DNA of 36,989 nucleotides from Haliea sp. (GTDB taxonomy: Bacteria > Pseudomonadota > Gammaproteobacteria > Pseudomonadales > Halieaceae), in contig JAACFI010000006.1 of the NCBI GenBank assembly GCA_009937575.1, positions 1-36,989 on the forward strand, given 5' to 3'. A program made the position numbers and the translations under genes. How positions within the stretch are numbered: position 1 is the first letter of the stretch; every line of letters starts with the position of its first letter. Positions 3,593 through 17,492 of this stretch are shown here, one piece after another. The notes below the pieces were generated by a model. The model ran no database searches. It was not told where the DNA came from and saw nothing but the letters and a program-made list of their open reading frames with translations.

Positions 3593-4291
3593 TCAACCGC
3601 ACTTGGAGTCGCCGCAACTGAGGCAGGTCATACAGCCGTCCATCATCACCATGGCCTTGGTGTAGCATTTGCCACACAGGGTAGCGCTGTCAGGGAAATT
3701 CACATCACTGCCTGACTCGTGATCGCCACCGGCCTTTGCCGCTTCGAACTCGGCGCGTTTCTCGGCGAGGTATTTACGCTGGTGCTCGTCCAGTCCCTCA
3801 TCCTGCAACAGCCCGATCATCTTCATATGCGACTCTATCGCATAGCCGATATCCGCCACCAGCGATGGCATATAGCGTCCGCCCGGCTTGAAATAACCAC
3901 CTTTGGGATCGAAGACCGCCTTCATTTCCTCCACCAGGAAAGTGGAATCGCCCCCCTTGCGAAATACCGCGGAAATTACCCTGGTAAGGGCCACTACCCA
4001 TTGGAAGTGATCCATATTCTTGGAGTTGATAAAGATCTCGAAGGGTCGGCGCAGTTCGTGCTCGGTGCCCTCATTGAGCACGATATCATTAATCGTGACG
4101 TACAGCGCATGCTCCGACAGGGGCGTTTTTATCTTGTAAGTGGAGCCCATCAGTAATTCAGGGCGTTCCACGCTCTCATGCATATGCACCACGTCCGCCT
4201 TGCGTTCCGGGGCCGCATCCCCGTCACCGCCCGCGTGACTCTCCTCCACCACCCGGTAGTCGACGATTTTGCTGTCTATTTTTTTTGCCAT
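3593..4291 (-). CDS. nrdJb: Class II ribonucleotide reductase, C-terminal subunit NrdJb
   Basis: The 232-aa protein carries the C-terminal part of a split adenosylcobalamin-dependent ribonucleotide reductase. The body (about 50-170) looks like the TSCPD-type domain found after class II catalytic domains. The end is a cysteine cluster, CGKCYTKAMVMMDGCMTCLSCGDSKC, abbreviated here as CGKC...CMTCLSCGDSKC, which fits a zinc-binding and thiol-relay tail that re-reduces the active site. Length and position match PA5496-type NrdJb of Pseudomonas. It starts 10 bp after the nrdJa stop, so the two form one transcription unit. Codons 3-5 make a run of eight A, a possible slippage site just after the start. 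Confidence 0.93.
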   Translation of the reverse strand: MAKKIDSKIVDYRVVEESHAGGDGDAAPERKADVVHMHESVERPELLMGSTYKIKTPLSEHALYVTINDIVLNEGTEHELRRPFEIFINSKNMDHFQWVVALTRVISAVFRKGGDSTFLVEEMKAVFDPKGGYFKPGGRYMPSLVADIGYAIESHMKMIGLLQDEGLDEHQRKYLAEKRAEFEAAKAGGDHESGSDVNFPDSATLCGKCYTKAMVMMDGCMTCLSCGDSKCG

Positions 4292-4301
4292 GGCTGCGAC
4301 C

Positions 4302-6449
4302 TCAGAATTTTCCGTAGTAACCTTCTTTCAAGGCGTCATAGAGATTGGCCACGGTGTGAACCTGACCGTCGTATTCCACCTCTTCATCCCCTGCAAGTTG
4401 TACGCTGGAACCGTTTTCCAGGGTGAATTCATAGCGTGTATTCTTAAGGTCCTGTTCCTTTACCATCACCCCCTGGAAAGCCTCGGGGTTGAAGCGGAAA
4501 GTGGTACAGCCCTTGAGGCCCTTCTCGTGGGCGTAGCGGTAGATATCCTTGAAATCTTCAAAAGGAAAATTGGTCGGCACATTGGCGGTTTTGGAGATGG
4601 AGGAATCCACCCATTTCTGCGCCGCCGCCTGCACATCCACGTGCTGCCGCGGAGTTATATCATCCGCGCTGATGAAATAATCCGGCAGGCATTTATCCTC
4701 GTCCTCGCTGTGAGGCATCGCCTGCGGATTGATATGGTGCCGGTAAGCCAGCAGCTCATAGGAAAATACATCTACCTTGGCCTTGCTCTTCTTGCCCGGC
4801 ACGATGATATTGCGCGCGTAGTGATGGGCAAAACTCGGTTCAATCCCGTTGCTGACATTATTACCCAGTGACAGGGAAATGGTGCCGGTAGGGGCTATGG
4901 AACTGTGGTGGGTAAAGCGACTGCCCTCCTCTTCCAGTGCGGCAACCAGATCGGGCTCCACCTCCCTCAGCTGCCGCATGTAGCGACTGTAACGCGTGTG
5001 CAGGATACGGCCCGGTACCGTATCCCCCTGCCGGAAGCCATCGGCCTCAAGTTCAGGCCGCAGACGCAACAGTGCGGGGGTGATTTCGAACTCCTCTTCC
5101 ATAATCGGCGCCGGGCCTTTTTCGCGGGCCAGTGCCAGTCCCTCACGCCAACCCTCCACCGCGAGGCTGCGGGCCACGGACTCGGTGAACTCCAGTGAAT
5201 CGGCCTCGCCATATTTCATCCGCAGCATCGTCAGGGCCGAACCCAGGCCCAGGAAGCCCATACCGTGGCGGCGTTTTGCAAGAATCTCCCCGCGCTGGCC
5301 CTCGAGGGCCAGGCCGTTGATTTCAACCACGTTATCCAGCATGCGGGTGAAAACGGCCACCACTTCCCGGAACCTTTTCCAGTCGAAGTGGGCGTCGGCG
5401 GCAAATGGACTGACCACAAAGCGCGTGAGGTTGACCGAGCCCAGAAGACAGCTTCCATGGGGGGGCAGGGGCTGCTCCCCACAGGGATTGGTCGCGCGTA
5501 TATTCTCGCAGAACCAGTTATTGTTACAGTCGTTGACCCGATCGATGAGAATGAAGCCGGGCTCTGCATAGTCATAGGTGGAACGCATGATGGTGTCCCA
5601 CAGCTCCCGTGCCCGCACCGTCCTCAAAATCCGGCAGGCAACCCGGCCACTGTCGTCGCTGATATATGGATGGCCCACCGGCCACTCGCGCCACAGCACC
5701 TGCCCCTCGTCCGCCAGATCTATATCCTGCTGCACTGCTTGTTCCGAAGTGAGCGGGAACACCAGCGGCCAGTCACTGTCTTCGCTCACTGCCTGCATGA
5801 ATTCCTCGGTGATCAGCAGTGACAGGTTGAACTGTCGTAGTTTTCCGTCCTGGCGTTTGGCCGCGATGAACTCTTCCACATCCGGGTGGCTGACATCGAA
5901 CGTCGCCATCTGTGCCCCCCGCCTGCCCCCGGCGGAGGAGATGGTAAAGCACATACTGTCATAGACGTCCATGAAGGACAGCGGACCTGAAGTCTGCGCC
6001 CCGGCGCCGGCGACGTAGCTGTCCCGGGGGCGCAGCGTGGAGAATTCATAACCTATTCCACAACCGGCCTTCAGGGTAATACCCGCCTCATGCAGGCCAC
6101 CCAGGATGTCGTCCATGGAATCCTCTATGGTGGCGGAAACGGTACAGTTGATGGTAGATGTTTCCGGCTTGTGCGCCCCCGCTCCCGCATTGGACAGAAT
6201 CCTGCCCGCAGGAATCGCGCCCTGGCGCAGTGCCCAGAGAAAACGCTCGTACCAGTGATGCCGGGCATCTTCAGATTCGAGGTCCGCGAGGGCCCGGGCT
6301 ACACGCGCCAGGCTCGCGTCGACATCTCTGTCAAGCGCCTCGCCTACACTGTTCTTCAATTGGTATTTCTGGCGCCAGATGTCCAGGGCGGCACCCTGTA
6401 ACGGCACAAGGTCTTCATATTCGGTGGCTGGGGAAGATGCGACGTGCAT
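4302..6449 (-). CDS. nrdJa: Adenosylcobalamin-dependent ribonucleotide reductase, catalytic subunit NrdJa
   Basis: This is the 715-aa catalytic chain of a class II ribonucleotide reductase, which reduces ribonucleotides to deoxyribonucleotides using a cobalamin-derived radical and needs no oxygen. The active-site cysteines are visible: Cys102 in INCTVS, Cys323 in NPCGEQPL (thiyl radical, with Glu325) and Cys334 in GSCLLGS. A PTGTISLSLGN motif lies further on. The ATG at 6449 is preferred over a TTG at 6494 because GGAG sits about 6-10 nt before it. The C-terminal thiol relay is missing and is supplied by nrdJb downstream. The upstream region has an FNR box, a -10 and two NrdR boxes, which predict induction at low oxygen and NrdR repression when dATP is high. 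Confidence 0.95.
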   Translation of the reverse strand: MHVASSPATEYEDLVPLQGAALDIWRQKYQLKNSVGEALDRDVDASLARVARALADLESEDARHHWYERFLWALRQGAIPAGRILSNAGAGAHKPETSTINCTVSATIEDSMDDILGGLHEAGITLKAGCGIGYEFSTLRPRDSYVAGAGAQTSGPLSFMDVYDSMCFTISSAGGRRGAQMATFDVSHPDVEEFIAAKRQDGKLRQFNLSLLITEEFMQAVSEDSDWPLVFPLTSEQAVQQDIDLADEGQVLWREWPVGHPYISDDSGRVACRILRTVRARELWDTIMRSTYDYAEPGFILIDRVNDCNNNWFCENIRATNPCGEQPLPPHGSCLLGSVNLTRFVVSPFAADAHFDWKRFREVVAVFTRMLDNVVEINGLALEGQRGEILAKRRHGMGFLGLGSALTMLRMKYGEADSLEFTESVARSLAVEGWREGLALAREKGPAPIMEEEFEITPALLRLRPELEADGFRQGDTVPGRILHTRYSRYMRQLREVEPDLVAALEEEGSRFTHHSSIAPTGTISLSLGNNVSNGIEPSFAHHYARNIIVPGKKSKAKVDVFSYELLAYRHHINPQAMPHSEDEDKCLPDYFISADDITPRQHVDVQAAAQKWVDSSISKTANVPTNFPFEDFKDIYRYAHEKGLKGCTTFRFNPEAFQGVMVKEQDLKNTRYEFTLENGSSVQLAGDEEVEYDGQVHTVANLYDALKEGYYGKF

Positions 6450-6514
6450 GGTGAACTCCTGTCCCGCTGTTTTTGTTGTTATTGCACCGGGCAACCGGCT
6501 GAGCGAGCGCCAGA

Positions 6515-6530
6515 ACCCAACATATGGTAT
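6515..6530. promoter_or_regulatory. NrdR box, promoter-distal
   Basis: ACCCAACATATGGTAT matches 12 of 16 positions of the NrdR consensus ACACWATATATWGTGT. It is exactly 32 bp from the second box at 6547-6562, about three helical turns, as paired NrdR boxes normally are. Both lie at or downstream of the predicted nrdJ transcription start. Confidence 0.75.
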
Positions 6531-6546
6531 TTACAATACATACATA

Positions 6547-6562
6547 ACACCATATATGGGTC
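6547..6562. promoter_or_regulatory. NrdR box, overlapping transcription start
   Basis: ACACCATATATGGGTC matches 11 of 16 consensus positions, including the central ATATAT. It abuts the predicted nrdJ -10 (TATAGT on the minus strand, 6568-6563), so NrdR binding would block RNA polymerase. Confidence 0.78.
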
Positions 6563-6589
6563 ACTATACACCCACAGATTCGATGTATG

Positions 6590-6603
6590 CTGATCCAGAT
6601 CAA
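6590..6603 (-). promoter_or_regulatory. FNR/Anr-type box of the nrdJ promoter
   Basis: CTGATCCAGATCAA matches TTGATNNNNATCAA at 9 of 10 informative bases. On the minus strand a TATAGT -10 is centred 31 bp downstream (6568-6563), close to the spacing of a class II FNR promoter with the box at -41.5. That places the start near 6556, about 107 nt before the nrdJa ATG. Confidence 0.75.
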
Positions 6604-6658
6604 TAGAACGGCCGCCACCACTCCTTTCCCACCCCTGTAGTGTGGAACTGGTGGAACT

Positions 6659-6718
6659 GGGGACAGACCCCAATTTAAAAAAGGGGCTGGCCCCTTTTTT
6701 AAATTGGGGTCTGTCCCC
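6659..6718. repeat. 60-bp near-perfect palindrome (REP/MITE-like)
   Basis: Two 29-bp arms, GGGGACAGACCCC plus AATTTAAAAAAGGGGC and their exact complement, flank a 2-nt centre (TG). The GGGGACAGACCCC / GGGGTCTGTCCCC ends are of the type I recall from dispersed intergenic repeats associated with Y1 (REP-type) transposases in proteobacteria. It sits between the nrdJ promoter and the nirS terminator. There is no coding capacity. Confidence 0.85.
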
Positions 6719-6733
6719 TAAAAAGAAAGCCAT

Positions 6734-6760
6734 AAAAAAACCGGCGCCACAGGCGCCGGT
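6734..6760 (-). terminator. Intrinsic terminator of nirS
   Basis: On the minus strand an 8-bp stem CCGGCGCC / GGCGCCGG with a 3-nt loop is followed by TTTTTTT. It begins about 26 nt after the nirS stop codon, so it closes the nirI-nirS unit. Confidence 0.92.
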
Positions 6761-6785
6761 TCAGGTTCAGATTGGCAGCTCTAGA

Positions 6786-8570
<1,785 letters not shown>

Positions 8571-8627: not shown

Positions 8628-10154
8628 TCAGGCATCGGAAGCGATCACCGCCTCGGCCTTGCGGCGCTCCTTGTCCTCGCGCTTCTTGCGTTTCTCCACC
8701 AGCGGCGGGCAGCGCCCGTCATCCCAATAGGTTACCTGGCACTCCAGGCAGTAGTGACACTCGTTGTCGATGATCTCGCCGGTGGGTTTGATCGCGGCAA
8801 TCTGGCACTGGTGGGCGCAGGCCTGGCAGGGTTTGCCACATTCCCGCCGGCGGCGCAGCCAGTCGAAGATCCGGAAGCGGGTGACGAAACTCAGCCCCGC
8901 TCCCAGGGGGCAGAGGTACTTGCAGTAGAACTTGCTGTTGATGGCGGAAACCGCCAGCAGCGCCACCGCGTAGATGACAAACTCCGGCTCACGGGCAAAG
9001 CGCAATATAAAGGTGGTCTTGAAGGGCTCCACTTCCGCCAGGCGCGCCGCGTTCACCATGGAGTCCAGTGACAGGCCCACCAGGGCGATGAGGATCAGGT
9101 ACTTTATCGCCCACAGACGCTCGTGCACCATCTGCGGCAGGCGGTAACCCTCGAACCCCAGGCGATTCGCCAGTTTGCTGATCAGGTCCTGGGCGGCACC
9201 AAAGGGGCACAGCCAGCCGCAGTACACCCCCCTGCCCCACAGCAGGATGCTGATGGCAACGAAGGCCCACAGCACGAACACTATCGGCTCAATCAGCAAC
9301 GTATCCCAGGAAAACCCGCCGGTAAGGCTGTGGAAGAAGGCCAGCAGATTGATGACCGACAGCTGCGCCGAGCAATAGAAGCCGATAAAAAATACCGTGA
9401 AGAGCAGATACACCACCCGCAGGCGATGAAACAGCACCGTGTGTTCCACCAGCAAGTCCTGGAAAAACAGGATGGCCATCAACAGCAGCAGTGCCAGCAG
9501 GATAACGCCGAGCTCAATAGCCCGGTCTTCCCACAGTAACTGCCAGGCGGGGACTTCCTCGAAAGCGCTCTCTTGCGGCTCTGCTCCCGGCGCGGGGCCG
9601 AAACCCGGCATCGCCGGTGATCTCCCGCGGGGAATACCGTAGGCCTCGGCAACACTGCGCACCGCCTTGTTGACCGAGCTGGTCAGCACCATGGTGGTGA
9701 TCGTGGCACCGGTAATACCGTCGATACCCACGTAGCCGGCTCGCCGATGGGCCCCCACCCGCACCCTGTCCGTCGTTTTCTTACCCACGAACTGCGCGAT
9801 AAAGGTGTTCAGGTCGTCATCTGACACACCGATCACCAGGATAGGCTCCTCGTGATGGAGGATTTCGACACCCTTTATTAGGCCATCTTCACCCAGCCCC
9901 ACCACCGTGTTGATCGGTTTGCCCGAATAGGCGGAGATCGGCGCCAACTCACCGGTGGTAAACGCGAACCCCAGCTGGCCGCGTTCACCGCGCACCGCGT
10001 AGGCCGGGACCTTGCCATTGAGGAGTGTGATCGACTGAGCCGTGGGAAAAACCCTGCGCACTTCTTCCAGTGTCAATTCACCCGCATTGGCAGACACCGA
10101 TGATGCCAGCAGGAATAATGTCAACAGCGAGATCAGGAACCGGCGAACAGGCAT
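8628..10154 (-). CDS. nirI: NirI/NosR-type membrane flavo-iron-sulfur protein
   Basis: This 508-aa protein has the NosR/NirI architecture. After a signal peptide comes a periplasmic FMN-binding domain with DGITGAT, where Thr151 is the likely covalent FMN attachment. About five membrane helices carry two CxxxCP motifs (CGWLCP at 312-317 and CKYLCP at 411-416). A cytoplasmic ferredoxin-like tail has Cys439, 443, 446, 450 and Cys466, 469, 472, 482. Such proteins support nitrite or nitrous-oxide reductase expression or activity, probably by electron transfer. It is shorter than typical NosR (about 700 aa) or NirI (about 640 aa as I recall), the shortfall being in the periplasmic part. Its place upstream of nirS, and the absence of nosZ here, favour NirI. 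A perfect FNR box lies 78-91 bp upstream. Confidence 0.85.
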   Translation of the reverse strand: MPVRRFLISLLTLFLLASSVSANAGELTLEEVRRVFPTAQSITLLNGKVPAYAVRGERGQLGFAFTTGELAPISAYSGKPINTVVGLGEDGLIKGVEILHHEEPILVIGVSDDDLNTFIAQFVGKKTTDRVRVGAHRRAGYVGIDGITGATITTMVLTSSVNKAVRSVAEAYGIPRGRSPAMPGFGPAPGAEPQESAFEEVPAWQLLWEDRAIELGVILLALLLLMAILFFQDLLVEHTVLFHRLRVVYLLFTVFFIGFYCSAQLSVINLLAFFHSLTGGFSWDTLLIEPIVFVLWAFVAISILLWGRGVYCGWLCPFGAAQDLISKLANRLGFEGYRLPQMVHERLWAIKYLILIALVGLSLDSMVNAARLAEVEPFKTTFILRFAREPEFVIYAVALLAVSAINSKFYCKYLCPLGAGLSFVTRFRIFDWLRRRRECGKPCQACAHQCQIAAIKPTGEIIDNECHYCLECQVTYWDDGRCPPLVEKRKKREDKERRKAEAVIASDA

Positions 10155-10231
10155 ATTGTTTTTTCCGCCCGGGGCGCAGCATTACACCCCATTATGGCAG
10201 ATCATCCTAGTACGCGCCGTTAACGGTCCCG

Positions 10232-10245
10232 TTGATCTGAATCAA
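10232..10245 (-). promoter_or_regulatory. Perfect FNR/Anr box driving nirI
   Basis: TTGATCTGAATCAA is a full match to TTGATNNNNATCAA. On the minus strand TAGGAT (10209-10204) is centred exactly 32 bp away, the geometry of a class II FNR promoter, giving a start near 10197 and a leader of about 42 nt before nirI. In the other direction the same geometry would put a start on the ATG at 10279, so it fits nirI better. Confidence 0.88.
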
Positions 10246-10278
10246 ACATCTATTGGCTACTTTGAGGTCTGATAAGGT

Positions 10279-10677
10279 ATGAATTCCACCCGCATACTCT
10301 CCCCGCTGCTGTTGTTACTGCCCCTGGTAACGTTCGCAGATGCCGATACGGACGCCGTCAACGAACGCCTGCCGGTGAGAAAGGCGGAGCTTGAGAGCCA
10401 CTGGCAGGTCGACTGCCTGGGTAGTTGGTCGGCTGTTACAGAGGCCTTCGAACAGGGCCCGGAACCGGCGGATTGCCGCCCTGCTCCGGAGCAGAGACGG
10501 CAGCTGGAACTGTGCGCCTTCATCTACCAGCCCCCCGGGGAAATATCACGGCACGACTGCCCCGACTACCGCGGCCTGCTGCGGTTGCTGGACGCCACTC
10601 CGGCGCGGGACTGCGACCAACTGGCGGGATGGTTCGGCACCCGAACGGACTGCGCGGACAATACTCCCACAAATTGA
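10279..10677 (+). CDS. Secreted six-cysteine protein of unknown function
   Basis: I do not recognise this 132-aa protein. An N-terminal signal peptide (about 1-20, ending VTFADA) indicates export. The mature part has six cysteines, five of them preceded by Asp (DC) or in similar short contexts, and no CxxCH, so it is not a c-type cytochrome; three disulfides or a metal site are possible. It is acidic and soluble. It is divergent from nirI and precedes the NOR operon, so a role in nitrogen-oxide metabolism is inferred only from position. The ATG is kept because the signal peptide starts there. GAGG lies about 12 nt upstream, which means the mRNA must begin close to the FNR box and not 41.5 bp after it. 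Confidence 0.72.
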   Translation: MNSTRILSPLLLLLPLVTFADADTDAVNERLPVRKAELESHWQVDCLGSWSAVTEAFEQGPEPADCRPAPEQRRQLELCAFIYQPPGEISRHDCPDYRGLLRLLDATPARDCDQLAGWFGTRTDCADNTPTN

Positions 10678-10710
10678 CCGGCTATTAATCAAGCCCCCGC
10701 GAACAAATCA

Positions 10711-10724
10711 TTGATCGAGGTCAA
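10711..10724 (+). promoter_or_regulatory. FNR/Anr-type box of the NOR operon
   Basis: TTGATCGAGGTCAA matches 9 of 10 consensus bases. TACCAT (10747-10752) is centred exactly 32 bp downstream and fits a -10, giving a start near 10759 and a 56-nt leader before the 51-aa gene. This is class II FNR geometry. Confidence 0.82.
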
Positions 10725-10757
10725 GATACGGCCCCGACGGCGGGAGTACCATCATCG

Positions 10758-10785
10758 AAAGCCTGACCCGCGAGGTGGGCTTTTT
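10758..10785 (+). terminator. Hairpin with short T-tract in the NOR leader
   Basis: AAAGCC (10758-10763) pairs with GGCTTT (10778-10783), with an inner ACC/GGT extension, followed by TT. It could end transcription of the six-Cys gene. It also starts at the predicted first base of the NOR mRNA, so it may instead be a 5' stabilising hairpin or attenuator. The U-run is short. Confidence 0.45.
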
Positions 10786-10814
10786 CACTTTCACTGATCA
10801 GGGAGAACAGAACA

Positions 10815-10970
10815 ATGTCCGATCAGGATCAAGCCGATTCCGGCGAAGTACCAATGATGCAAAAGTTACTGGACAACCCATTCCTGCTGCTTTTCCTGGG
10901 TGTAGCATCGCCTGCCCTGCTGTATCTGGTGTGGGGATTAGCGGAGATTTTCACTATTCCCGTTCGCTGA
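10815..10970 (+). CDS. 51-aa single-pass membrane peptide, first gene of the NOR operon
   Basis: The small ORF begins at an ATG with GGGAG about 10 nt upstream and ends at TGA 10968-10970. It encodes a soluble, acidic N-terminus (about 1-20) and one clear membrane helix (LLLFLGVASPALLYLVWG, about 24-41), ending in VR. It precedes the CuA subunit by 38 bp and follows a class II FNR promoter, so it is translated first. Small hydrophobic subunits (CcoQ-like or subunit IV-like) are common in heme-copper oxidases, and a similar structural or assembly role is inferred. I cannot assign it to a family. Confidence 0.8.
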   Translation: MSDQDQADSGEVPMMQKLLDNPFLLLFLGVASPALLYLVWGLAEIFTIPVR

Positions 10971-11008
10971 TTACGCGAAATAACGAGAACCCATAAGGGG
11001 GTCTGAAT

Positions 11009-11551
11009 ATGTCCAGCCTGTCGCCTCCCGCCAAAAAACTCTGGTGGAAAGAGCCAATTCATAAATCCGAGCTGCTGTGGATATCGCTGGTCTTCGTCTG
11101 GGGCCTGGTGATGACCTTCATGATGCCCTACTGGCACGTGGTGGGAAAACAGAACCTCGGTACCGATACCTACAAGACCACGCCCAAGGCTTTCCAGGCC
11201 GCTACCGAGGCCTTCGTGGAGAAGTACGAGGTGCGCAAGGAGGGGCCGCGCAACTACCCGGTCGTGGCGCCGCCGGCGGGTGGCGATGTCTACCTGATCG
11301 CCCGCCTGTGGGACTGGTGGCCCATCGTTGAACTGAAGAAAGGCGAAACCTACCGCTTCCACCTGTCTTCCCTGGACTGGCAGCACGGATTCTCCCTGCA
11401 ACCGGCCAATATCAACATCCAGGTCGTACCCAACTATGAGCACGTATTCAACCTGACGCCCAACGAGACAGGCGAATACTCGGTCATCTGCAACGAATAC
11501 TGTGGCGTCGGTCATCACCTGATGATCGGCAAGATCCACGTGGTCGATTAG
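11009..11551 (+). CDS. norS: CuA-containing subunit II of an atypical heme-copper NO reductase
   Basis: This 180-aa protein has one N-terminal membrane helix (about 22-42) and a periplasmic cupredoxin domain. The full CuA ligand set is present: His126, then Cys161, Glu163, Cys165, His169 and Met172 in CNEYCGVGHHLM. It takes electrons from a periplasmic donor and passes them to subunit I. One helix and a short chain resemble ba3-type subunit II more than mitochondrial-type subunit II. The symbol norS is tentative: it follows the gene order norS-norY-senC known from ammonia oxidisers. A canonical oxidase subunit II is the alternative, judged less likely because of the next gene. Confidence 0.85.
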   Translation: MSSLSPPAKKLWWKEPIHKSELLWISLVFVWGLVMTFMMPYWHVVGKQNLGTDTYKTTPKAFQAATEAFVEKYEVRKEGPRNYPVVAPPAGGDVYLIARLWDWWPIVELKKGETYRFHLSSLDWQHGFSLQPANINIQVVPNYEHVFNLTPNETGEYSVICNEYCGVGHHLMIGKIHVVD

Positions 11552-11562
11552 GAGAACGGGAC

Positions 11563-13257
11563 ATGGCTACTACAACATTCAGAACCTGTCCGGACACCGG
11601 TCTCAAGTTTTTCAACTCTACCGAAAACCTGCTTAAGGCCAACGCAGTGGCGGCGGTGGTCTTCCTGCTGGTAGGCGGGTTGCACGGACTGCTGGTGGGC
11701 ATGACCCGCTGGCAGGCAGTTCACCTGCTGGGCGCAGAAGATTTCTACATGGTGCTCACTGCCCACGGCCTCAACGTACTGATTTTCTGGATCATCTTTT
11801 TCGAGATCGCGGTGCTGTATTTCGCCTCTTCGGTTTTGCTGGGCTGCCGCCTGGCCACGCCCAAGTGGGCCTGGGCAGGCTTTGCACTGATGGTCATCGG
11901 CGCCGTGATGAACAACGTGGTGGTACTGCAGGGCAACGCCAGCGTAATGATGACCTCTTACGCACCAATGGAGGCGCCGCCCCTGTTCTACCTCAGCCTG
12001 ATTCTGTTTGCGGTGGGCGCCCTGATTGGCTGCTTCGTGTTCTTCGGCACCCTGGTGGTTGCCAAGAACGACAAGACCTACGAGGGCTCCGTGCCCCTGG
12101 TGACCTTCGGTGCCATCACCGCGGCAATTATCGCGGTGTTCACCATCGTCAGTGGCGCCATCATCCTGATACCGACCTTGTTGTGGAGTCTCGGCCTGGT
12201 GGGTGAAATCGACGCCCTTGCCTACCGCCTGATCTGGTGGGCCTTCGGTCACTCCTCACAGCAAATCAACGTATCGGCCCACGTGGCGGTGTGGTACGCC
12301 ATCGCAGCCATCCTGTTCGGCGCAAAGCCGCTATCGGAAAAGGTGAGTCGCACGGCCTTCCTGATGTACATCCTGTTCCTGCAAATCGCCAGTGCACACC
12401 ATCTGCTGGTGGACCCGGGTGTCAGCTCCAACTTCAAGATGTTCAACACCAGCTATGCCATGTACCTGGCGGTCATGGCGTCCATGGTGCACGGTCTCAC
12501 CGTTCCCGGTTCCATCGAGGCGGCCCAGCGGGCCAGAGGACACAGCGCCGGTCTGTTTACCTGGCTGCGCAAGGCACCATGGGGCAATCCGACCTTTTCG
12601 GGCATGTTCATCTCCCTGGTTGGCTTCGGATTTCTCGGCGGTATCACTGGCGTGGTCATGGGGGCGGAGCAGATCAACCTGCTGGTGCACAACACCCTGT
12701 ATGTACCGGGCCATTTCCACGCCACCGTGGTGGTGGGCACCACCCTGGCATTCATGGCCCTCACCTACTGGCTGGTGCCGGTGCTGTTCCGCCGTGAAAT
12801 TGTCATGAAGGGCCTGGCGAAATGGCAGCCCTATCTGTTCGGCCTGGGCATGTCCGGGGTCTCCCTGTTCCTGATGGGCGCGGGCACCCTGGGTGTACCG
12901 CGTCGTCACTGGGATATCGGGTTCGCCGCCACCGGTGGTATTACCCACGATTTCCCCGCCGCCGCCTATACCATGCTGGCCCTCAATGGCCTGTCAGTCA
13001 TCGTGGCAGTGATCGGCGGGGCAGCCTTCTGTGTAATCATCGTAGGCTCCCTGCTGTTCGGGCGTAAGCTTGGCGACCAGAAGATGAGTGAGCAGTGGAT
13101 CGCCGATCCAGTGACAGATGAAGAATACAGTGCCAACGGGGGGAGTGCTTTCGCCATCCCGGGTACGGTAGTATTGGCGATGGTGTTCTTCGTCAGCTTC
13201 GCGCTGTACTACTTCATCAACTGGAAGTACCTGGCAGAGACCTGGGGTATCAGCTAG
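11563..13257 (+). CDS. norY: Catalytic heme-copper subunit I, probable CuA-type nitric oxide reductase
   Basis: The 564-aa polytopic protein has at least 12 helices and all six canonical ligands: His68 (low-spin heme), His230, His279 and His280 (CuB), and His384/His386 in VPGHFH. In O2 reductases His230 begins GHPEVY, whose Tyr is cross-linked to the CuB His. Here the motif is GHSSQQ, with Gln234 at the Tyr position. Loss of that Tyr is expected for a NO reductase rather than an oxidase. The CuA partner, SenC, FNR box and nearby nirS support reduction of NO to N2O. Several CuA-type NOR classes are described (eNOR, bNOR, sNOR, gNOR, nNOR); I cannot place it without a tree. The gene starts 11 bp after norS, with GGAG upstream. 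The symbol is tentative. Confidence 0.85.
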   Translation: MATTTFRTCPDTGLKFFNSTENLLKANAVAAVVFLLVGGLHGLLVGMTRWQAVHLLGAEDFYMVLTAHGLNVLIFWIIFFEIAVLYFASSVLLGCRLATPKWAWAGFALMVIGAVMNNVVVLQGNASVMMTSYAPMEAPPLFYLSLILFAVGALIGCFVFFGTLVVAKNDKTYEGSVPLVTFGAITAAIIAVFTIVSGAIILIPTLLWSLGLVGEIDALAYRLIWWAFGHSSQQINVSAHVAVWYAIAAILFGAKPLSEKVSRTAFLMYILFLQIASAHHLLVDPGVSSNFKMFNTSYAMYLAVMASMVHGLTVPGSIEAAQRARGHSAGLFTWLRKAPWGNPTFSGMFISLVGFGFLGGITGVVMGAEQINLLVHNTLYVPGHFHATVVVGTTLAFMALTYWLVPVLFRREIVMKGLAKWQPYLFGLGMSGVSLFLMGAGTLGVPRRHWDIGFAATGGITHDFPAAAYTMLALNGLSVIVAVIGGAAFCVIIVGSLLFGRKLGDQKMSEQWIADPVTDEEYSANGGSAFAIPGTVVLAMVFFVSFALYYFINWKYLAETWGIS

Positions 13258-13281
13258 GACGCTTTCCACAAGCGGTTATAC

Positions 13282-14088
13282 ATGCACAAGTGTCTATGGC
13301 CGGCTCTCGCCGGCCTTTTTCTTTCAGCGGCGGCAATTGCCACGGCGGAGCCTGATTTTTCCGCCTTCAGCCGCGACGATGCCCTGGCCTACAGTCAGGC
13401 GGTCATCGGCAATTCCCTGGAGAATGTCGAGCTCGTGACTTCCGAGGGGTTGCCGGTATCCCTGGCGGACTACCGCGGCAAGCCGCTGGTGATCAGCATG
13501 ATCTTCACCAGCTGCCACCATATCTGCCCCACCACCACCCAGCACCTGGACCAGGTGGTAAAAAAGGCGCGCGACGCACTGGACGAGGACAGCTTTCGGG
13601 TGGTCACGGTGGGCTTCGATACGCCTAACGACCATCCGCAGCGCATGGCGAGCTTTCGCGACAGCAACGGGGTGACCGATACTCGCTGGGATTTCCTGTC
13701 GGCAGACGAGGAGAACATACGTTCGCTGACCCGCCAGCTGGGCTTTATCTACATGCCCTCCCCCAGAGGCTTCGACCACCTGATCCAGTCCTCCATTATC
13801 GATGCCCAGGGCAAGGTATACCGCCAGGTGTATGGCATTACCTTCCCCACGCCAAAGTTGATCGAGCCGCTGAAACAACTGGTGTTCGGTGAGCCCGCCA
13901 GCCCCTCCACGCTGGACTACCTGGAAAACCGCATCCGACTGTTCTGCACCGTCTACGACCCGGCAACGGACAGCTACCACATCGATATCTCAGTATTCAT
14001 CGGGACCTTCGTAGGGCTGATCGTCTCCATTATTTTCGCGCGCGCCCTGATCATCGAGTGGCGTCGCAGTATCAAGGCGAACCGATGA
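13282..14088 (+). CDS. senC: SCO1/SenC-family copper chaperone for CuA assembly
   Basis: The 268-aa protein has a signal peptide (about 1-22), a thioredoxin-fold SCO domain and, unusually placed, a C-terminal membrane helix (about 236-258). The copper-binding residues are Cys78 and Cys82 in TSCHHICP and His166 in GFDHLIQ. SCO proteins deliver copper to, or reduce, the CuA site of subunit II, so this fits the norS product. The start is fixed by the signal peptide. Codons 6-15 overlap a strong terminator-like hairpin (13298-13325), so expression may be set lower than that of norS-norY. It overlaps the next gene by ATGA. Confidence 0.9.
   Translation: MHKCLWPALAGLFLSAAAIATAEPDFSAFSRDDALAYSQAVIGNSLENVELVTSEGLPVSLADYRGKPLVISMIFTSCHHICPTTTQHLDQVVKKARDALDEDSFRVVTVGFDTPNDHPQRMASFRDSNGVTDTRWDFLSADEENIRSLTRQLGFIYMPSPRGFDHLIQSSIIDAQGKVYRQVYGITFPTPKLIEPLKQLVFGEPASPSTLDYLENRIRLFCTVYDPATDSYHIDISVFIGTFVGLIVSIIFARALIIEWRRSIKANR
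13298..13325 (+). terminator. Terminator-like hairpin inside the start of senC
   Basis: GGCCGGC (13298-13304) and GCCGGCC (13309-13315) form a perfect 7-bp GC stem with a 4-nt loop, followed by TTTTTCTTTC. It has every element of an intrinsic terminator but lies 16-43 nt inside senC, within the signal-peptide codons. It could give partial termination after norS-norY. Confidence 0.65.
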
Positions 14089-15620
14089 AGGCGCTGTTGA
14101 AAAAGGGCTTCAACCACCTGGACAGCTTTTTCTCGGTTTTCTTCACGCCCAAATGGAACCCCATGTACCAGTTGGGGGCACTGTCGTTTTTCTACTACTG
14201 GATCGTCGCCATCACCGGCGTCTACCTGTTCATCTTCTTCGAAACCAGCATCTCCGGCGCCTACAGTTCCATCGAGCGCATTACCCATGATCAGTGGTAC
14301 ATCGGTGGTGTCATGCGCAGTTTTCACCGCTATGCCTCAGCGGCCATGGGTATCTGCGTCACCCTGCACCTGGTGCGCGAATACGCCATGGACCGTTACA
14401 GCGGCCCGCGCTGGTTCAGCTGGGTCACCGGCATACCGCTGCTGTGGCTGCTGTTCGCCTCAGCCATCGGCGGCTACTGGCTGGTGTGGGACCAGCTGGC
14501 CCAGTACATCGCCATACTGACCGCCGAGTGGTTCGACTGGCTGCCGATCATGGTGGATCCCATGGCCAGCAATTTCCTCAACGAATCCACCCTCAGCGAC
14601 CGCTTTTTCTCCCTGCTGGTATTCCTGCACATCGGCATTCCGCTGGCACTGCTGCTGGGCATGTTTATTCACATCAAGCGCGTCACCGGCGCCCGCACCA
14701 ACCCCGCCAGCGGCCTGGCCATAGGTACCCTGCTGGCTATGCTGGTGGTATCCCTAGTGTGGCCGGCCCTCAGCCAGGCGCCCGCCAACCTGGACGTTGC
14801 GGTAACGGAGGTTGGCCTGGACTGGGTGTTCCTCAACCCCTACCCGCTGATCAACAGCTGGGGGCCGGGCCAGACCTGGGCGCTGCTGGTGGGACTTTCC
14901 TGCATTCTCACCCTGCTCCCCTGGCTGCCCTCGAAACGCCCTGAACAGACGCCGGTGGCAGTGGTGGACCCGGACAACTGCAATGGCTGCGGCTGGTGCC
15001 TGGCGGACTGCCCCTACGAGGCGGTGAGCATGAAGGACCACGATTACAAGAAGGATCACAAGCAATCGGTGGTAGACCCCGACCTCTGTGTCAGCTGCGG
15101 AATCTGCGCAGGGGCCTGTCCCTCATCGTCACCGTTCCGGCATGTGGACGAATTGACCACCGGAATCAGCATCCCGGGCTTTCACATCAAGGAGCTGCTG
15201 TCCCTGACCGAGAACAAGCTTAAAGCCCTGGATTCCGTTGCACCACATATCATGCTCTATGGCTGCGACCACGGCAGTACCGTGGATCAGCTGGAGTCGG
15301 GCAGCGTGGCCGCCATCAGCATGCCCTGTTCAGCGCTGGTACCGCCCGCTTTTATCGACTACGTGCTACGCAGGGGCCTGGCTGATGGCGTGATCATCAG
15401 CGGTTGCTGTGAGGGAGACTGCTATTACCGCCTTGGCAATACCTGGCTGGACCAGCGTTTCAGCCAGGAGCGCATGCCGATCCTGCGCACCCGGGTACCA
15501 AGGGAGAAGGTCCGCCTGAGCTGGCTGGGTGTGCAGGGCACCGCGCAACTGGGCACTGAAATCGAGGAATTCCAGCACTATCTCCACCACGCCGAGGAGG
15601 AGGAAGCCTACTATGGCTGA
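14085..15620 (+). CDS. Fusion: cytochrome b - two [4Fe-4S] ferredoxin motifs - MvhD/FlpD-like domain
   Basis: This 511-aa protein joins three redox modules. Residues about 25-215 are a cytochrome b N-terminal domain with bis-His pairs His81/His95 and His182/His196, both H-x13-H as in bc1. Two more helices follow (about 210-228 and 264-282). Next are two complete [4Fe-4S] motifs (Cys299, 302, 305, 309 and Cys335, 338, 341, 345). The C-terminus (about 385-480) resembles the MvhD/FlpD subunit, with Cys393, Cys415 and SGCCEGDCYYRLGN (Cys441, 442, 446). Basic residues after helices 4 and 6 place the Fe-S part in the cytoplasm. A link between cytoplasmic reductant, quinone and the NOR is inferred. 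The ATG at 14085 overlaps the senC stop (ATGA), better than an upstream GTG. Confidence 0.88.
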   Translation: MKALLKKGFNHLDSFFSVFFTPKWNPMYQLGALSFFYYWIVAITGVYLFIFFETSISGAYSSIERITHDQWYIGGVMRSFHRYASAAMGICVTLHLVREYAMDRYSGPRWFSWVTGIPLLWLLFASAIGGYWLVWDQLAQYIAILTAEWFDWLPIMVDPMASNFLNESTLSDRFFSLLVFLHIGIPLALLLGMFIHIKRVTGARTNPASGLAIGTLLAMLVVSLVWPALSQAPANLDVAVTEVGLDWVFLNPYPLINSWGPGQTWALLVGLSCILTLLPWLPSKRPEQTPVAVVDPDNCNGCGWCLADCPYEAVSMKDHDYKKDHKQSVVDPDLCVSCGICAGACPSSSPFRHVDELTTGISIPGFHIKELLSLTENKLKALDSVAPHIMLYGCDHGSTVDQLESGSVAAISMPCSALVPPAFIDYVLRRGLADGVIISGCCEGDCYYRLGNTWLDQRFSQERMPILRTRVPREKVRLSWLGVQGTAQLGTEIEEFQHYLHHAEEEEAYYG

Positions 15621-16107
15621 TCTTCGTCGCTACCTGGGCCAGGCCCTGCTCTATGCCGCATTCTTCGTGCCCCTGGTGTACATCACCCACCTGCCGACTT
15701 TCACCCACCTCGAAGAGGATATGGCGGTACTGAAAATCGCCGTGCGCCACGCCGGCAAGATCATCGGGGAGTGCAAACCCCTGAGCGGTGCGGAGTACGA
15801 CAAGCTGCCCAGCAACATGAAACGCCCGGAGATCTGTCCCCGGGAGCGCTCGCCCCTGCAACTGGAGTTGCTACTCGACGGTGAATCGCTGTACCGTGCC
15901 ACCGTGTCGCCCTCAGGGCTGCACAACGACGGGGTGTCCAGTATGTACCAGCGGTTCGAAGTCCCGGCGGGTGCGCATCACCTGCAACTGCTGATGAACG
16001 ATGATGTCGCCAGCGAGGGCTATACCTGGCAGCTGGAACGGGACGTGGTATTAGAGCCCGCCCAGGTGATGGTGGCCAGTTTCAAAGAGGGATTCAGGTT
16101 ACAGTGA
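15613..16107 (+). CDS. Membrane-anchored protein of unknown function in the NOR operon
   Basis: I do not recognise this 164-aa protein. One N-terminal helix (about 8-25) is followed by a soluble, probably periplasmic, beta-rich domain with two cysteines (GECKPL and PEICPRE), suggesting a disulfide or metal site. The ATG at 15613 overlaps the preceding stop by 8 bases, with GAGGAGGAGG just upstream, so translation is coupled. It overlaps the next gene by GTGA. This embedding makes it a likely structural or assembly partner of the cytochrome b fusion or the second heme-copper protein. Confidence 0.78.
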   Translation: MADLRRYLGQALLYAAFFVPLVYITHLPTFTHLEEDMAVLKIAVRHAGKIIGECKPLSGAEYDKLPSNMKRPEICPRERSPLQLELLLDGESLYRATVSPSGLHNDGVSSMYQRFEVPAGAHHLQLLMNDDVASEGYTWQLERDVVLEPAQVMVASFKEGFRLQ

Positions 16108-17492
16108 CGACAGATCAGGATTACAGCCTGGAAGTACCGACAGATTCCAGGCGACTGTTGGCACTGGGCTGGCTGTGGCTCTGCGTGCTGGCGCTGCTGG
16201 TGGCCGGCGTGTTCTCGCTACTGCTGGTAGTATCGCGTACACCCTACGTATCCGAGATCATCCCCTGGATCGGCTTCTTTCACTCGGCGCTGGTAGTGCA
16301 CGTGGATCTCTCGGTGCTGGTCTGGAGCCTGGCCTTCGGCGGTTTCCTGTGGAGCCTCAACCAGCGCCCGGGAACCGCGATCCTGGCATGGGCCGCACTG
16401 GCCCTGGCAGGCGCCGGCGCACTGGTGATCACCGCTTCGCCCTTCGTGCGGGACGCACAGCCGCTGATGAGCAACTACGTGCCCGTATTGCAGCATCCGC
16501 TGTTCTTCTCCGGCCTGTTTATGTTCGCCCTGGGCTTCAGCCTGCTGGTGCTCAACAGCATGATTTTCATGGCCCCGGTGGGCCCCTGGGTGAGCGCCCG
16601 CGGCGCCCTGCGTTTCGGGCTCAACACCGCGTCAGTATCAGCGGCGGTGGCAATGATCTGTTTCGTCTGGTCCTACCTGCAGATTCCCGACTACCTGATG
16701 GGCCGCTCCTTCTTCGAGTTGCTGTTCTGGGGTGGCGGCCACGTGCTGCAGTTCACCTACACGCTGCTGATGCTGGTGTGCTGGCTTTGGCTGTGCCGGG
16801 AGGCGGGCCTGCAACTACCCGTGACACCGCGCGTGGTATTGCTGATCCTGTTTGTCGGGCTTGCCTGTGTGTTCGTGTCTCCCCTGTTCTACCTGGCCTA
16901 CCCGATCACCGCGCCGGAACACGTCAAACTGTTCACCTGGCTGATGCGCTGGGGTGGCAGCCTCGGTACCCTGCCCCTGGCAGTGGCGATCATCGTCGCC
17001 CTGCTGCGCTACGGCGGGCAGAACCAGCAGGAGTGGCAGGCGCGCTCGGCCCTGCAGTGCTCACTGTTCCTGTTCGGTATCGGCGGCCTGATCGGGTTCC
17101 TGATTTCCGGGAGTGACGTCACCATCCCGGCGCATTACCACGGCTCCATCGTCGGCGTTACCCTGGCCATGATGGGGGTGTGCTATGTATTGCTGCCCCA
17201 GCTCGGCTTCCCATTGCGCAACCCGAAGATGGCCATCTGGCAGCCGATTATCTACAGCGGCGGCCAGTTGATGCACGTGGGGGGGCTGGTCTGGTCCGGA
17301 GGCTACGGCGTACAGCGCAAGGTGGCCGGGGCGGAACAGGCGCTGAATTCCATCGAACGCGTCCTGGGAATGGGCCTAATGGGGCTGGGCGGCCTGGTTT
17401 CCTCGATCGGCGGGCTGCTGTTCCTGATTATCGTGCTGCGCGCCCTCGCCGGGGTAAAGCCAGATGCGCAGCAGGCTGAAAGTGGACAGTGA
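16104..17492 (+). CDS. Heme-copper-like subunit I paralogue lacking the CuB His pair
   Basis: The 462-aa, about 12-helix protein resembles subunit I of heme-copper reductases but is divergent. His60 and His66 in helix 2 (FFHSALVVHVDLS) and IPAHYHGS (His344, His346) match the heme-ligand positions. His213 in FWGGGHVLQF corresponds to the first CuB His. The region that should hold the HH pair reads FYLAYPITAPEHVKLFTWLM, with only His273, so a normal CuB site looks absent. The oxidase Tyr is absent too. It may bind hemes only, acting as an electron-transfer partner, or be a distinct NOR-like enzyme with altered ligands. The GTG start overlaps the preceding stop (GTGA), so it belongs to the operon. 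It is usually the type of sequence auto-labelled cbb3 subunit I. Confidence 0.82.
   Translation: MTTDQDYSLEVPTDSRRLLALGWLWLCVLALLVAGVFSLLLVVSRTPYVSEIIPWIGFFHSALVVHVDLSVLVWSLAFGGFLWSLNQRPGTAILAWAALALAGAGALVITASPFVRDAQPLMSNYVPVLQHPLFFSGLFMFALGFSLLVLNSMIFMAPVGPWVSARGALRFGLNTASVSAAVAMICFVWSYLQIPDYLMGRSFFELLFWGGGHVLQFTYTLLMLVCWLWLCREAGLQLPVTPRVVLLILFVGLACVFVSPLFYLAYPITAPEHVKLFTWLMRWGGSLGTLPLAVAIIVALLRYGGQNQQEWQARSALQCSLFLFGIGGLIGFLISGSDVTIPAHYHGSIVGVTLAMMGVCYVLLPQLGFPLRNPKMAIWQPIIYSGGQLMHVGGLVWSGGYGVQRKVAGAEQALNSIERVLGMGLMGLGGLVSSIGGLLFLIIVLRALAGVKPDAQQAESGQ

Follow-up and report, generated by a model that had tools for sequence, protein, structure and literature searches.

A cytochrome b fused to ferredoxin and MvhD-type modules is tied to the eNOR nitric oxide reductases of Proteobacteria and may form a transmembrane electron wire

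The nitric oxide (NO) reductase eNOR is a ba3-a1 subtype of the B-family heme-copper enzymes. In passages of two reports, Gln at the position of the active-site Tyr marks eNOR (PMC8756737), the name eNOR stands for what is elsewhere called ba3-a1, and cytochrome c is given as its electron donor (PMC8879329). In this study, we analyzed a 36,989-nt stretch of DNA from Haliea sp. (contig JAACFI010000006.1, positions 1 to 36,989, forward strand), referred to here as the window. It encodes, in a cluster with a likely eNOR, a single 511-aa protein (14085-15620, plus strand, stop included) in which cytochrome b helices A to F are followed by two [4Fe-4S] motifs and an MvhD/FlpD domain. We found that this fusion almost always goes together with proteobacterial eNOR, and we tentatively read it, at a probability falling just short of even, as a transmembrane electron wire dedicated to that enzyme. 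The modules and eNOR were already known; the fusion, its near-obligate tie to eNOR and the exchange of its tails appear to be new, as no text on the fusion in eNOR operons was found in the literature searched, although the principal eNOR paper lay outside that search and a prior description is possible.

The initial annotation had described two H-x13-H pairs, two complete CxxCxxCxxxCP motifs and an SGCCEGDC segment in this one chain, and all of them were confirmed, with ligands near-invariant in 68 sequences. The heme pairs are H81/H95 and H182/H196. The [4Fe-4S] motifs (residues 298-347, 14976-15125, plus strand; Pfam and alignment) read C299-x2-C302-x2-C305-x3-C309-P and C335-x2-C338-x2-C341-x3-C345-P. 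SGCCEGDC corresponds to residues 439-446, within the MvhD/FlpD [2Fe-2S]-type domain (about residues 390-501, 15252-15587, plus strand), which is matched by Pfam and by the PDB MvhD chains 5odc_D and 9sw2_D. Pfam matches above the gathering score were obtained for Cytochrome_B (6.2e-18, residues 21-197), Fer4_7 (1.4e-11, with two Fer4 motifs at 298-347) and FlpD (3.9e-14, residues 407-501). The FlpD score of 53.2 bits against a cut-off of 22.3, together with the conserved cysteines, upholds the MvhD domain proposed earlier. A profile from a first alignment of 32 fusion homologues, run against solved chains, matched cytochrome b6, cytochrome b, the HdrA C-terminal ferredoxin and MvhD. Residues 291-504 also matched the C-terminal ferredoxin-MvhD part of the NCBIfam HdrA2 model with 85.5 bits, a score far short of the full-length cut-off.

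Homologous loci were examined as the best 80 of at least 585, so the synteny counts given below lean to close relatives. Residue conservation was scored in 68 rows, comprising the window and 67 of these 80 named loci; L082, L085, L089, L105, L113, L123, L130, L136, L139, L141, L148, L149 and L152 were omitted by hand. The four heme His, the eight [4Fe-4S] Cys and C394, C415 and C446 of the MvhD domain were kept in 68/68 rows and C441 in 67/68. All ligand residues were also intact in 11 of the 13 loci outside the alignment, the L085 copy being truncated before H81 and that of L141 being considered below. At the level of sequence, a chance origin of the motifs is excluded. Two MvhD-type copies stand in tandem in one operon in L145 (9989-11587 and 12247-13785) and in L211 (7581-10994). 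Cytochrome b of the bc type is dimeric, and these tandem copies might form heterodimers.

The membrane part was more complete than the initial annotation had seen. The b6-like helices A to D (residues about 11-198, 14115-14678, plus strand), recognized by Pfam and by profile matches to PDB chains of cytochrome b6, hold the four His ligands. They are followed by subunit-IV-like helices E and F (residues 200-291, 14682-14957, plus strand), whose profile matched subunit IV of the b6f complex (2e74_B, E 4.5e-6). In that alignment D246-W247 fall over the E-W of the Qo motif PEWY; both residues were present in 68/68 rows, so that Asp replaces Glu throughout. An AF2 model of the fusion (pLDDT 91.6, pTM 0.87) superposed through residues 10-288 on cytochrome b of bc complexes with Z 23.7 and a root-mean-square deviation of 3.6 Å over 262 residues. 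According to profile and model, the fusion retains the A-F helix fold and a Qo-like pocket, and the later helices are lost. A ferric-reductase-type membrane domain was not found; the membrane part is of the bc type by both Pfam and structure. The six helices are placed as in cytochrome b, and by this homology the tail would begin on the cytoplasmic side, as had been predicted for the Fe-S part; the alternative tails described below, which bind NAD(P)H, agree with this placement. The other cytochrome b of the same genome (G000:C6, L002) has PVWY at the Qo motif where the fusion has xDW, and therefore the Qo Glu is not universal.

The likely NO reductase of the cluster lies upstream of the fusion. 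Subunit I (11563-13257, plus strand; Pfam COX1 5.1e-64) contains GHSSQQ, with Gln in place of the catalytic Tyr, and subunit II (11009-11551, plus strand) carries the CuA motif CNEYCGVGHHLM; the latter had no Pfam match and an NCBIfam CoxB-like match below the cut-off. Because of the signature Gln and the CuA subunit II, subunit I is likely of the eNOR type. The norSY-senC order had suggested sNOR, with Asn at this site, and that assignment was rejected since Gln occupies it. A subunit-I match of more than 45% identity was present in 69 of the 80 named loci. The motif was GHSSQQ in 63 of them and GHASQQ in 2, that is GH[SA]SQQ in all 65 homologues that cover the site, and 4 partial copies stop short of it. 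The CuA motif was found in 48/49 locus homologues of subunit II. Between subunit I and the fusion lies the SCO1/SenC copper chaperone (13282-14088, plus strand; Pfam 2.2e-13), whose stop shares 4 nt with the fusion's ATG at 14085. Neighbor counts around the fusion were made by tblastn. Among the 58 loci with more than 4.5 kb upstream, subunit I was found within the set distance in 57, subunit II in 57, SenC in 56 and CyoE in 33; CtaA occurred in 23/80 named loci. Downstream genes were scored in the 78 named loci with enough sequence, where a conserved 164-aa partner gene followed the fusion in 76, a hemerythrin gene in 42 and a degenerate heme-copper protein in 22. The misses for the subunits, SenC and the 164-aa gene are L137 or L153, in which a second cytochrome b copy lies in between; both loci hold the eNOR genes as well as the fusion. 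In the window, no hemerythrin-family gene was seen at the position where it recurs in eNOR clusters.

The tie to eNOR also held genome-wide. In a class draw of 369 genomes (cut-offs E<=1e-40 for the fusion and E<=1e-100 for eNOR subunit I), the fusion was detected in 34 genomes and subunit I in 33, with both in 32 of the 35 that had either gene, one with eNOR only and two with the fusion only. In a phylum draw of 398 genomes (E<=1e-30 and E<=1e-90), the corresponding numbers were 34 and 30, with both in 29 of 35, one with eNOR only and five with the fusion only. Fisher tests gave 1e-42 for the class and 8e-38 for the phylum, with kinship ignored; the two draws overlap in at least the window's own genome, which is 94.6% complete. 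Roughly 8% of the sampled proteobacterial genomes thus carry eNOR (33/369 and 30/398). In the two eNOR-only genomes, G358 and G519, the contigs end just past subunit I and just past SenC, where the fusion would come next. Three genomes of one genus (G487, G497 and G522) keep both genes well inside separate contigs, and the fusion of G497 adjoins nirS (L206). The genes of G500 also lie on different contigs, but this genome was not counted as unlinked because its fusion begins 397 bases away from the end of a contig. The distribution is patchy among near relatives, with a match of at least 77% identity in 11 of the 97 genomes searched, the window's own included. A search for plasmids carrying the fusion returned one record. 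On a 165-kb Defluviimonas plasmid (NZ_CP156080.1, L190), the fusion stands in an eNOR cluster together with CyoE, SCO, hemerythrin and, at the position of the 164-aa gene, a hypothetical gene; this copy of the fusion is labeled by NCBI only as a 'cytochrome b N-terminal domain-containing protein'. These results demonstrate a near-obligate tie of the fusion to proteobacterial eNOR and strongly support the link to NO reduction proposed in the initial annotation, as co-occurrence did not place the fusion mainly with unrelated systems.

The same cytochrome b was also found with other cytoplasmic tails. It is joined to Fer2, FAD_binding_6 and NAD_binding_1 in L137 (5723-7657), L153 (7483-9423), L201 (8640-10619, minus strand) and L198 (7586-9571, minus strand). 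The first three of these genes each belong to an eNOR cluster with an additional copy of the MvhD type, and that of L198 is located elsewhere in its genome, G177. In L199 (5675-8224, minus strand), cytochrome b is joined to flavodoxin, FAD_binding_1 and NAD_binding_1, at the far end of the genome's own eNOR cluster. The four His and the D-W pair were kept in all five proteins. Among 67 fusion-bearing genomes, two (G177 and G805) had a contiguous NAD(P)H-tailed gene, and in a third (G435) the gene is probably divided between contigs. In a quick 95-row tree, the fusion family stood apart from bc1 (support 100), and the four NAD(P)H-tailed rows formed one group (99) nested in the MvhD rows, with SH-aLRT of only 82-93. 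The diflavin row paired with the MvhD copy from its own genome (100), and L201_mvhd lay on a very long branch. The starred branches of this tree suggest at least two tail changes. On the L199 contig, 5675-8224 and 12653-14530 (minus strand) share 873 bp at 100% identity over cytochrome b and then continue into different tails; the identity might be explained by a recent duplication, by gene conversion or by a faulty assembly. The other genome searched in the family of the L199 genome gave no match (1/2 genomes).

Since three unrelated cytoplasmic redox modules occur on one membrane core, this core probably passes electrons to or from the cytoplasm. The known families of two of these tail types oxidize NAD(P)H, and flow from inside to outside is therefore favored. 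In the path that we infer, a putative cytoplasmic donor would dock on the MvhD domain and electrons would pass from its [2Fe-2S] cluster through the two [4Fe-4S] clusters to heme bH and heme bL. On the periplasmic side, they may be taken up by a quinone bound in the Qo-like pocket or move straight to the CuA center of eNOR, which would then reduce NO to N2O. At the sequence level, the pillars of this reading are the cofactor sites, the genome-wide tie to eNOR and the swap to NAD(P)H-type reductase domains.

The product of the 164-aa gene (15613-16107, plus strand) is predicted to have one transmembrane helix and a periplasmic beta domain (model pLDDT 94.9). Because of this architecture, and because L095 and L096 encode it in one chain with cytochrome b, the protein is probably a periplasmic membrane-anchored subunit of the same complex as the fusion. 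C54 and C75 were invariant in 36 rows, and the motif NMRxPxxCxRER is common in the family. Pfam and NCBIfam gave no match for it, and Foldseek with the model returned nothing at E<=0.001. The best VIA-align match, to human HGSNAT (Z 9.5), was taken as a common beta-sandwich arrangement.

Several observations weigh against the wire. No cytoplasmic dehydrogenase was recognized among the recurrent neighbors as a donor of the MvhD form, and no electron-carrier motif that would account for the periplasmic exit was recognized in the 164-aa partner. The L141 copy (10001-11518) has Gly for the last MvhD Cys, C446, with all heme and [4Fe-4S] ligands kept. No eNOR was detected in seven genomes that carry the fusion; five of these (G309, G565, G580, G667 and G718) are 69-82% complete, and in G353 (98% complete) and G587 (96%) the fusion lies on 5.3-kb contigs. 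The eNORs of two Thermus plasmids and of Thermomicrobium, whose subunit I is 44-45% identical and has GHGAQQ along with the CuA motif in the cluster, have no fusion annotated within 6-8 kb on either side, so that the fusion is not required for NO reduction as such. The diflavin form is known from one genome, with the suspiciously perfect 873-bp repeat. The window's genome has a second cytochrome b gene (28% identical), probably of bc1, which would be a sufficient route to CuA via cytochrome c. Finally, the conserved Qo-like pocket could serve quinol oxidation instead.

The fusion might alternatively be an assembly or activation reductase, with cytoplasmic electrons that cross the membrane and, while eNOR matures, maintain its copper or its CuA/SCO thiols in the reduced state. 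A similar role has been proposed for CcoG in cbb3 assembly and for NosR with NosZ. The overlap with SenC inside a SenC-fusion-164 aa block and the maturation genes CyoE and CtaA in the operon are consistent with this, as is the finding that no cytochrome c family was recognized among the recurrent neighbors, where no specific search was made. However, copper reduction needs no full Qo-like pocket, and the Thermus eNOR loci contain the CuA motif with neither SCO nor fusion annotated in the stretch shown; we consider this explanation unlikely. The pocket would be accounted for by a quinol dehydrogenase that oxidizes quinol there and passes the electrons to eNOR, the cytoplasmic tail being a side branch. 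Helices E-F and D246-W247, kept in 68/68 rows, argue for it, and the PDWY Qo motif is described, in a passage of one report, as a marker of an ancestral low-potential chain (PMC6349771). However, this cytochrome b carries three unrelated redox tails, so that a role of the tail as no more than a side branch is improbable, and no Rieske or cytochrome c1/f partner that could accept the electrons was recognized in the 40 most recurrent neighbor clusters of the 80 loci, in which no Rieske-specific search was made. We consider a quinol dehydrogenase quite unlikely.

Quinone-based bifurcation would combine the pocket and the tail: strongly exergonic NO reduction would pull one quinol electron to CuA, and the other would run via bL, bH and the Fe-S wire to ferredoxin or NAD(P)+. 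The Qo-like pocket together with a low-potential ferredoxin-MvhD wire like the HdrA2 C-terminus (the sub-threshold match noted above) is compatible with such a scheme. But the neighbor survey just cited, with its limit on Rieske, also recognized no high-potential one-electron acceptor of that kind, the low-branch flow into the cytoplasm opposes the membrane potential, and CysJ/CPR-type tails normally oxidize NADPH. We regard bifurcation as very unlikely.

As to the neighboring genes, the initial annotation had placed the fusion between SenC and a heme-copper protein that it took as the partner. The overlap with SenC stands, but the 164-aa gene lies between the fusion and the heme-copper protein (16104-17492, plus strand; Pfam COX1 35.3 bits, cut-off 34.8), and the eNOR-type subunit I lies upstream. 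This downstream protein was rejected as the NO reductase because it lacks both CuB histidines of transmembrane helix 7, a pair kept in 0/25 aligned sequences; H66, H213, H344 and H346 were kept in 25/25. Owing to this loss, sequence comparison marks it as a degenerate or re-purposed oxidase-fold protein of eNOR clusters. A heterodisulfide reductase or hydrogenase link through MvhD was likewise abandoned for the window's own genome, which has no HdrA above the cut-off (the best match being the fusion itself) and no second FlpD. On the minus strand, nirS encodes a cytochrome cd1 nitrite reductase, a source of NO (6786-8531; Pfam Cytochrom_D1 1.2e-146), and 8628-10154 encodes a membrane flavo-ferredoxin protein of the NosR/NirI family (NCBIfam NosR 603 bits, below the cut-off of 1000; Pfam FMN_bind and Fer4_5). 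Further away (3593-6494, minus strand) is an adenosylcobalamin-dependent ribonucleotide reductase, whose TSCPD part forms a separate downstream gene.

More broadly, the bc-type cytochrome b may be a plug-in transmembrane reductase for NO respiration with an exchangeable ferredoxin-MvhD, NAD(P)H or diflavin module. Together with the Qo-like pocket and the two b hemes, this module would link NO reduction with NAD(P)H and ferredoxin in the cytoplasm: electrons would bypass bc1 and cytochrome c on their way to eNOR or, with the flow reversed, quinol electrons would be bifurcated to give low-potential reductant. This proposal is possible but doubtful. The product of eNOR is N2O. A near-obligate partner with an electron connection to the cytoplasm would alter the energetics of NO reduction. 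The reuse of a bc-type cytochrome b with swapped cytoplasmic reductases is also relevant to the question of how modules for quinone-linked and flavin-linked electron transfer come to be recombined.

Compared with described systems, the window resembles eNOR in the Gln for Tyr, the CuA subunit II and the SCO gene in the operon; the fusion is an added protein, here seen only with eNOR of Pseudomonadota and absent beside the two Thermus and one Thermomicrobium eNORs. The NADPH oxidases and ferric reductases offer an analogy for mechanism only, with a cytoplasmic NAD(P)H-FAD domain, two b hemes and outward electron flow, whereas the membrane fold here is of the bc type. The best NCBIfam match of the fusion is the ExtP b-type cytochrome (NF040969; residues 27-201, 98.9 bits), but this is far below the cut-off of 290 and the 205-position ExtP model has no Fe-S/MvhD tail. 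With cytochrome b of bc1 and b6f, the fusion shares the four His in two H-x13-H pairs, helices A-F and the Qo-like loop. It differs in the Asp for the PEWY Glu, in an operon in which neither Rieske nor cytochrome c1/f was recognized, where no Rieske-specific search was made, and in having a cytoplasmic redox tail instead of the C-terminal helices that follow F. That tail has the same order as the C-terminus of HdrA2, two [4Fe-4S] motifs and then MvhD with its cluster cysteines, and cytochrome b stands where HdrA has its flavin core.

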